Source of the DNA: an uncultured Actinomycetes bacterium | GTDB lineage: Bacteria > Actinomycetota > Actinomycetes > Mycobacteriales > Mycobacteriaceae | Reading direction: 5' to 3' | DNA: 37,237 nucleotides | Assembly (NCBI GenBank): GCA_903862565.1 | Contig: CAIOYU010000405.1 | Location: forward strand, 1-37,237 | Shown: in pieces, positions 28,275-28,591 of the stretch | Layout of the letters: every line of letters starts with the position of its first letter | Numbering within the stretch: position 1 is the first letter of the stretch | The notes under the pieces: model-generated | Databases searched by the model: none | The model's input: the letters and a program-made list of their open reading frames with translations, nothing else | What the model was told of the DNA's origin: nothing | Position numbers and translations under genes: made by a program

Positions 28275-28301
28275 TTGCGCCAGCGGCCCCACCGATAGGA
28301 T
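28275..28301 (+). promoter_or_regulatory. Putative leaderless-type promoter of the metallothionein gene
   Basis: TAGGAT ends exactly 7 nt before the ATG, the spacing at which mycobacterial TANNNT promoters give leaderless mRNAs. A weak -35 (TTGCGC) lies 15 nt further upstream. The same bases contain AGGA, 8 nt from the ATG, which could instead act as a ribosome-binding site. Confidence 0.4.
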
Positions 28302-28308
28302 TACTCGC

Positions 28309-28545
28309 ATGACTGTCACCCCGGCTGACTGTAAGAACCCGAATTGCACGTGCTCGCCGTGTACCTGTGGCCCGGACTGCTCCTGCGGCAAGGACGCCGG
28401 CTGCGGCAACTCCGACTGCACCTGCGGCCCGGACTGCGCGTGCGGACCCGACTGCTCCTGCGGCAAGGACGCCGGCTGCGGCAACCCGAACTGCACCTGC
28501 GGCCCGAATTGCGCCTGCGGCCCGAATTGCTCCTGCGGCACGTAA
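28309..28545 (+). CDS. Metallothionein-like cysteine-rich repeat protein (78 aa)
   Basis: The ORF track gives a longer version, but the cysteine-rich protein begins at MTVTPADCKNPNC. It has 21 Cys in 78 residues (27%), no His and no aromatic residue, and all Cys fall in CxC, CGPxC or CGxxxC spacings. Residues 20-44 and 45-69 are a near-perfect 25-aa tandem repeat (CGPDCSCGKDAGCGN core), followed by a partial third unit. This composition is typical of metallothioneins, which bind Cu(I) or Zn(II) as thiolate clusters in the cytoplasm. It does not resemble the mycobacterial Cu metallothionein MymT (53 aa) or cyanobacterial SmtA as I recall them, and I cannot name a family. It is divergent from tesA and ends convergently with the thiolase. 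I see no RicR-type box upstream, so the metal that would induce it is unknown. Confidence 0.85.
   Translation: MTVTPADCKNPNCTCSPCTCGPDCSCGKDAGCGNSDCTCGPDCACGPDCSCGKDAGCGNPNCTCGPNCACGPNCSCGT
28366..28515 (+). repeat. 75-bp tandem duplication within the metallothionein gene
   Basis: Two 75-bp units (28366-28440, 28441-28515) encode the two 25-aa Cys repeats. A stretch of more than 30 bp (ctgctcctgcggcaaggac onward) is identical in both, pointing to a fairly recent duplication. A third, partial unit follows. Confidence 0.88.
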
Positions 28546-28558
28546 TACCGCTGGGCTC

Positions 28559-28591
28559 GAGCCTCTCGATGAGTCAGAGCCTCTCGATGAG
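28559..28591. repeat. 15-bp direct repeat flanking the thiolase stop codon
   Basis: gagcctctcgatgag occurs twice, separated only by tca, which is the TGA stop of the thiolase on the minus strand. The last five codons (LIERL) are thus repeated in frame right after the stop. The 10-bp palindrome ggctcgagcc overlaps the outer copy and may help end transcription between the two convergent genes. Confidence 0.9.

Follow-up and report, generated by a model that had tools for sequence, protein, structure and literature searches.

The bacterial metallothioneins named in the literature cited here are SmtA with its Pseudomonas relatives, and MymT (PMC7387436, PMC7924339). The Pseudomonas relatives of SmtA are rich in His, and His serves them as a ligand (PMC7387436). 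MymT is a small, Cys-rich, copper-binding protein (PMC7924339) and comes from the same bacterial group as the DNA analysed here. A modular design is found in the fungi. CnMT1 and CnMT2 of Cryptococcus neoformans and TmMT of Tremella mesenterica consist of 7-Cys units in tandem, and every unit has three CxC pairs and a lone Cys. These Cu-thioneins raise their capacity by duplication of units, and the CnMTs bind Cu5 per 7-Cys unit (PMC4755600). We compared these systems with a Cys-rich gene in the window, a stretch of 37,237 nucleotides from an uncultured bacterium of the Mycobacteriaceae. With moderate confidence we propose that this gene belongs to a new family of modular Cu(I)-thiolate metallothioneins, which would serve as a copper buffer or store and whose capacity would grow by duplication of whole modules.

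The reading frame starts with ATG, ends with TAA and encodes the protein MTVTPADCKNPNCTCSPCTCGPDCSCGKDAGCGNSDCTCGPDCACGPDCSCGKDAGCGNPNCTCGPNCACGPNCSCGT. Nine CxC pairs are present, and Phe, Trp and Tyr are absent. The protein thus shows the general traits of metallothioneins, being small and very rich in Cys, with CxC motifs and few or no aromatic residues. Like SmtA, BmtA and PmtA (PF02069), such a protein would be a small bacterial metal-thiolate protein. The SmtA/BmtA type, however, pairs His ligands with Cys, whereas the window protein contains zero His. Its Cys richness stands out among the 457 window frames of at least 40 residues: the best 60 residues hold 18 Cys, compared with 9 in the runner-up. 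The Cys residues follow the pattern CxNPxCxC-x2/3-CxC-x3-CxC, with seven Cys per module. Three complete copies were found, the third of which lacks nothing except the KDAG linker (Table 1). The broader pattern of the family, C-x-N-x2-C-x-C-x(2,3)-C-x-C-x(2,3)-C-x-C, likewise occurs three times, and a module profile scored the window modules singly with E values of 7e-10, 9e-8 and 3e-7. An earlier note on this DNA had described the length, the 21 Cys and the lack of His and aromatics correctly; its count of two full repeats and part of a third has to be replaced by three complete modules.

Table 1. Positions of the Cys-rich gene, its modules and associated DNA features in the window
Feature	Position	Strand	Basis
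Three-module Cys-rich metallothionein-like protein, 78 aa, 21 Cys	28309..28545	+	ORF translation, Cys register
Module 1, CKNPNCTCSPCTCGPDCSCG with KDAG linker, 7 Cys, C-x2-C form	28330..28401	+	
Module 2, CGNSDCTCGPDCACGPDCSCG with KDAG linker, 7 Cys, C-x3-C form	28402..28476	+	
Module 3, CGNPNCTCGPNCACGPNCSCG followed by T, 7 Cys, C-x3-C form	28477..28542	+	
In-frame tandem duplication of 75 nt (25 codons), copies 28366-28440 and 28441-28515, 88% identical	28366..28515	+	
Putative -10 box TAGGAT, ending 7 nt before the ATG	28296..28301	+	Consensus match only

At the DNA level, pN/pS was 0.18-0.30, both between the window modules and between the window gene and its counterpart at a syntenic locus (L001). 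The differences lie mainly at third codon positions. This concentration argues for a selected plus-strand protein, and against a duplication made by the assembly or a chance frame, and it supports purifying selection. The genome assembly itself is fragmented, with 781 contigs and 5.6% contamination. A minus-strand frame overlapping the gene is also open and is favoured by a GC3-based caller, as would be expected if the plus-strand frame were a product of chance and the real gene lay on the opposite strand. We give this explanation almost no credence. The protein is conserved in the plus frame, changes fall mostly on third positions, and relatives occur at unrelated loci in many genomes. The minus-strand gene was therefore rejected on the conservation of the plus frame and the low pN/pS. 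The syntenic locus has one module fewer than the window, two instead of three, and modules 2 and 3 of the window both share the C-x3-C form of the second module of L001. Thus the C-terminal module was probably duplicated in the window gene. The suggestion that the protein is expandable hereby gains direct support, from two modules and three at the same locus.

Relatives were first found in contigs labelled Mycobacterium or Mycolicibacterium, plus other actinobacterial bins. The profile search of mycobacteria for which the earlier note had asked was run with the module profile: of 397 genomes of the genus, which was assigned from the relatives, 75 carried the family. In the taxonomic family, 25 of 301 genomes and 5 of 31 genera carried it. 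Only 3 of 397 genomes in a sample of the phylum did so, and the family is rare outside its taxonomic family. Among the matches in the genus, two-module genes occurred in 13 genomes and three modules in the window only, the rest being one-module genes. One-module relatives are about 27-40 aa long and have 7 Cys. The module's seven Cys hardly vary. In 31 representative proteins they number 7, 14 or 21 in register, with two exceptions, one having lost a single Cys (L012) and the other having two extra Cys (L017). In phage and plasmid collections no phage matched, and one weak match came from Nonomuraea without annotation.

When the window protein was compared with Pfam and NCBIfam, no model scored above its cut-off, so that a match to a described metallothionein family, which would have spoken against a new class, was not obtained from these collections. 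PF02069 (Metallothio_Pro) found nothing in the genome of the window and matched none of 22 family members. An approximate MymT sequence gave no meaningful alignment to the window protein, and MymT is not built of repeats; in the window's own genome it produced just a weak match inside an unrelated frame and none that was convincing. The protein therefore fits neither MymT nor SmtA, as had been proposed. The idea of a repeat-built class is also supported, since relatives with one, two and three modules exist and none of the models of known bacterial metallothioneins gave a match. A weak match (E 0.0034) was seen between one of the 22 members, not the window protein, and PF02067 (Metallothio_5), which represents insect Cu-thioneins; no other model matched any of the 22. 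Searching the literature for the letters of the module motif found no paper; subscription literature lay mostly outside that search, and an earlier description is possible.

The likeness to the cryptococcal Cu-thioneins is in design. The window protein resembles them in its tandem 7-Cys units of three CxC pairs and one Cys, and it does not follow the Cys order of the fungal (Neurospora/Cryptococcus) type. The fungal unit reads [CXC]-X5-[CXC]-X3-[CXC]-X2-C, whereas the window module reads C-X4-[CXC]-X2/3-[CXC]-X3-[CXC], with the lone Cys at the opposite end. We do not claim homology. A closer agreement in spacing was found with a sea-urchin metallothionein domain (PDB 1QJL), which shows an identical C-x4-C-x-C-x3-C-x-C-x3-C-x-C arrangement over 22 residues (profile E 3e-4). 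This is an animal protein with additional Cys, and it does not repeat this module in tandem. In shuffles with Cys fixed, 2 of 300 reached the 1QJL score, and Cys placement alone gave about half of it. The resemblance is thus largely one of spacing and likely reflects convergence; descent from animals is not claimed. A snail Cd-metallothionein was a weak second match of the module profile. Another match, PDB 5vj4, obtained with a single protein as query, was dismissed as a low-complexity GP repeat.

The near-invariance of the seven Cys, the low pN/pS and the resemblance to known metallothioneins (1QJL, Metallothio_5) favour a metallothionein. Which metal it would bind is a separate matter. The main rival to a copper-thionein is a metallothionein that would bind divalent metals (Zn, Cd, Ni or Co) or have broad specificity. 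The spacing of the animal domain and the weak snail match are in keeping with this rival, and the missing His speaks against it. We judge it unlikely, also in view of the genes that surround the relatives.

To survey these neighbours, marker proteins were searched by local tblastn in 67 distinct loci, many of which share descent, so that the counts are not independent. About 23 of the 67 distinct family genes lie in copper loci with genes for a Cu(I) P-type ATPase, CtaG, SigC or PepSY. Among the metal-related contexts of the family, loci with copper ATPase, CtaG and SigC are the most frequent. The cluster around most two-module genes comprises a Cu(I) P1B-1 ATPase, SigC, CtaG/CopD, PepSY and a BlaI/CopY-like repressor, and many one-module genes starting with MTSNET are placed between a copper ATPase and CtaG. 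The ATPase of these loci passes TIGR01511, the copper-translocating model, and has the CPC, YN and MxxSS signatures. The adjoining ECF factor passes the SigC equivalog model. In M. tuberculosis, SigC governs copper acquisition genes and ctpB (PMC7924339). Copper is favoured because relatives adjoin these genes, have CsoR/RcnR-type operators and, in one case (L131), stand next to SCO1. Smaller groups of relatives adjoin NicT (L016, L031, L046) or CbiM/CbiQ (L004, L006, L009, L010, L014), which argues against copper and for a divalent metal. In the two-module loci, however, CbiM sits inside the copper cluster itself. Copper is better supported than zinc as the candidate metal.

A different context was seen in one genus of the taxonomic family. 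There, the one-module gene is directly downstream of mycothione reductase in all 12 loci tested (L117, L118, L120-L128, L130). This adjacency suggests a link between thiols and metal, and it also weighs against a copper role. It would fit a thiol redox buffer or sulfur reservoir working with mycothiol, for which metal binding is secondary. We find this improbable, as the association is confined to the one genus while copper loci dominate elsewhere, and the fixed CxC geometry exceeds the needs of a redox pool.

The promoter regions were compared next to the start codons. The spacing between the putative -10 box and the ATG of the window gene is of a kind that fits leaderless transcripts in mycobacteria, and the window gene's transcript would thus fit a leaderless type, like most relatives. 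In most one-module genes a -10 box TAnnnT lies at -13 to -8, with its key bases present in 33, 35 and 34 of 40 distinct upstream sequences. In the same sequences a conserved ATGC follows the -10 box just 5' of the start codon. The sequence TAnnnTCATATGC is strongly conserved directly before the ATG of one-module genes (e.g. L034, L041, L118), across unrelated loci and genera. It may be an operator that these genes have in common, placed on a leaderless promoter; the outer arms of TCAT-ATGC-ATGA match. Five distinct one-module genes (L010, L015, L018, L019, L038) have a CsoR/RcnR-type inverted repeat, TACC(C/T)-N-GGGGGTA, over the promoter, and only two such sites were found elsewhere in the 550 kb of loci scanned. 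Operators of this type cannot tell Cu from Ni/Co and would suit a divalent metal as well.

Leaderless polycysteine short ORFs have been described in mycobacteria. The promoter layout, which suggests a leaderless Cys-rich ORF, would therefore also agree with a Cys-responsive leader peptide acting as an attenuator. This is very improbable for a product of 78 aa with spaced CxC motifs and selection at the amino-acid level. The next gene is convergent and 28 bp away, which leaves no operon to attenuate, and no terminator-like hairpin was seen near the window gene. The attenuator peptide was rejected on the amino-acid-level selection and the absence of such a hairpin.

The surroundings of the window gene differ from those of most relatives. 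Upstream, at 49 bp and divergent, is a thioesterase closest to TesA of M. tuberculosis (PDB 6FVJ, E 3e-77), beyond which acyl-AMP ligases and type I polyketide synthases follow. The convergent gene downstream encodes a thiolase. With these two flanks the window copy has no adjoining copper gene of the kind common in the family. Its upstream region contains no CsoR/RcnR-type operator, and SigC has no match in its own genome. These results argue against the copper reading, which draws on the relatives; the window copy itself lies outside a copper locus. The earlier note had taken the lipid cluster next to the gene as a clue. This adjacency proved uninformative: relatives lie mostly in copper loci or by mycothione reductase, and of 30 TesA-like loci inspected, the window's own included, 29 are without the gene. 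L001, which was found separately, is the one other TesA-like locus with the gene and has flanks as in the window. Because the gene is missing from 29 of 30 loci, the adjacency is probably incidental, and a functional link to the lipid cluster was rejected.

The cluster itself (1-28259) is PDIM-like. Besides the TesA-like thioesterase it contains several type I PKS genes and three acyl-AMP ligases, of which two sit between PKS genes. Across the 3' end of the thiolase gene (28559-28591) there are two identical 15-nt copies of GAGCCTCTCGATGAG, 18 bp apart.

For the window protein we infer metal binding, with Cu(I) as the main metal, as well as induction. A short leaderless mRNA would probably be its template. 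The protein is presumably cytosolic, and no signal peptide is apparent from its sequence. Each module of 20-21 aa would supply seven thiolates, from three CxC pairs and one Cys, and these would most likely enclose Cu(I) in a small thiolate cluster. Like beads, the three modules may be strung on the short KDAG linkers. By analogy with the fungal 7-Cys units, roughly 4-6 Cu(I) could be bound per module, and capacity would rise with module number, from 7 to 14 or 21 Cys. The protein would buffer or store Cu(I) alongside export by P1B-1 ATPases. A broader proposal, which we offer tentatively and think somewhat more doubtful than probable, is that of a family for which the sources searched gave no description and in which Cu(I) capacity evolves as whole 7-Cys modules are gained or lost. 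It would belong to a SigC/CopA/CtaG copper module, and beyond detoxification it may pass Cu(I) on to export or to the assembly of oxidase.

If the copper-thionein reading is correct, a further metallothionein family would be present in about a fifth of the sampled genomes of the genus, and an intracellular Cu(I) store would be added to mycobacterial copper biology. The one-module genes are often so short that annotation may miss them. The family would offer a natural series of 7, 14 and 21 Cys for testing the additivity of thiolate clusters, and in bacteria it would mirror the way in which fungal metallothioneins grow by modules.

Further Cys-rich proteins were noticed in more distant bacteria. 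A Flavobacterium chromosome (L017, 5965-6087) encodes a one-module protein with the near-identical core CGNPNCTCVDCNCGPNCTCG, which may reflect transfer or convergence. An Armatimonadetes protein (L008, 5572-6369) has a hydrophobic segment at its N terminus together with many CxCGxxCxCG repeats, and is possibly an exported relative or a look-alike. In Oscillospiraceae proteins (L013, 5935-7410 and 9602-10564), Cys-rich repeat arrays (CNPxCTCxPCxC, CCDLYPDC) occur amid other domains.
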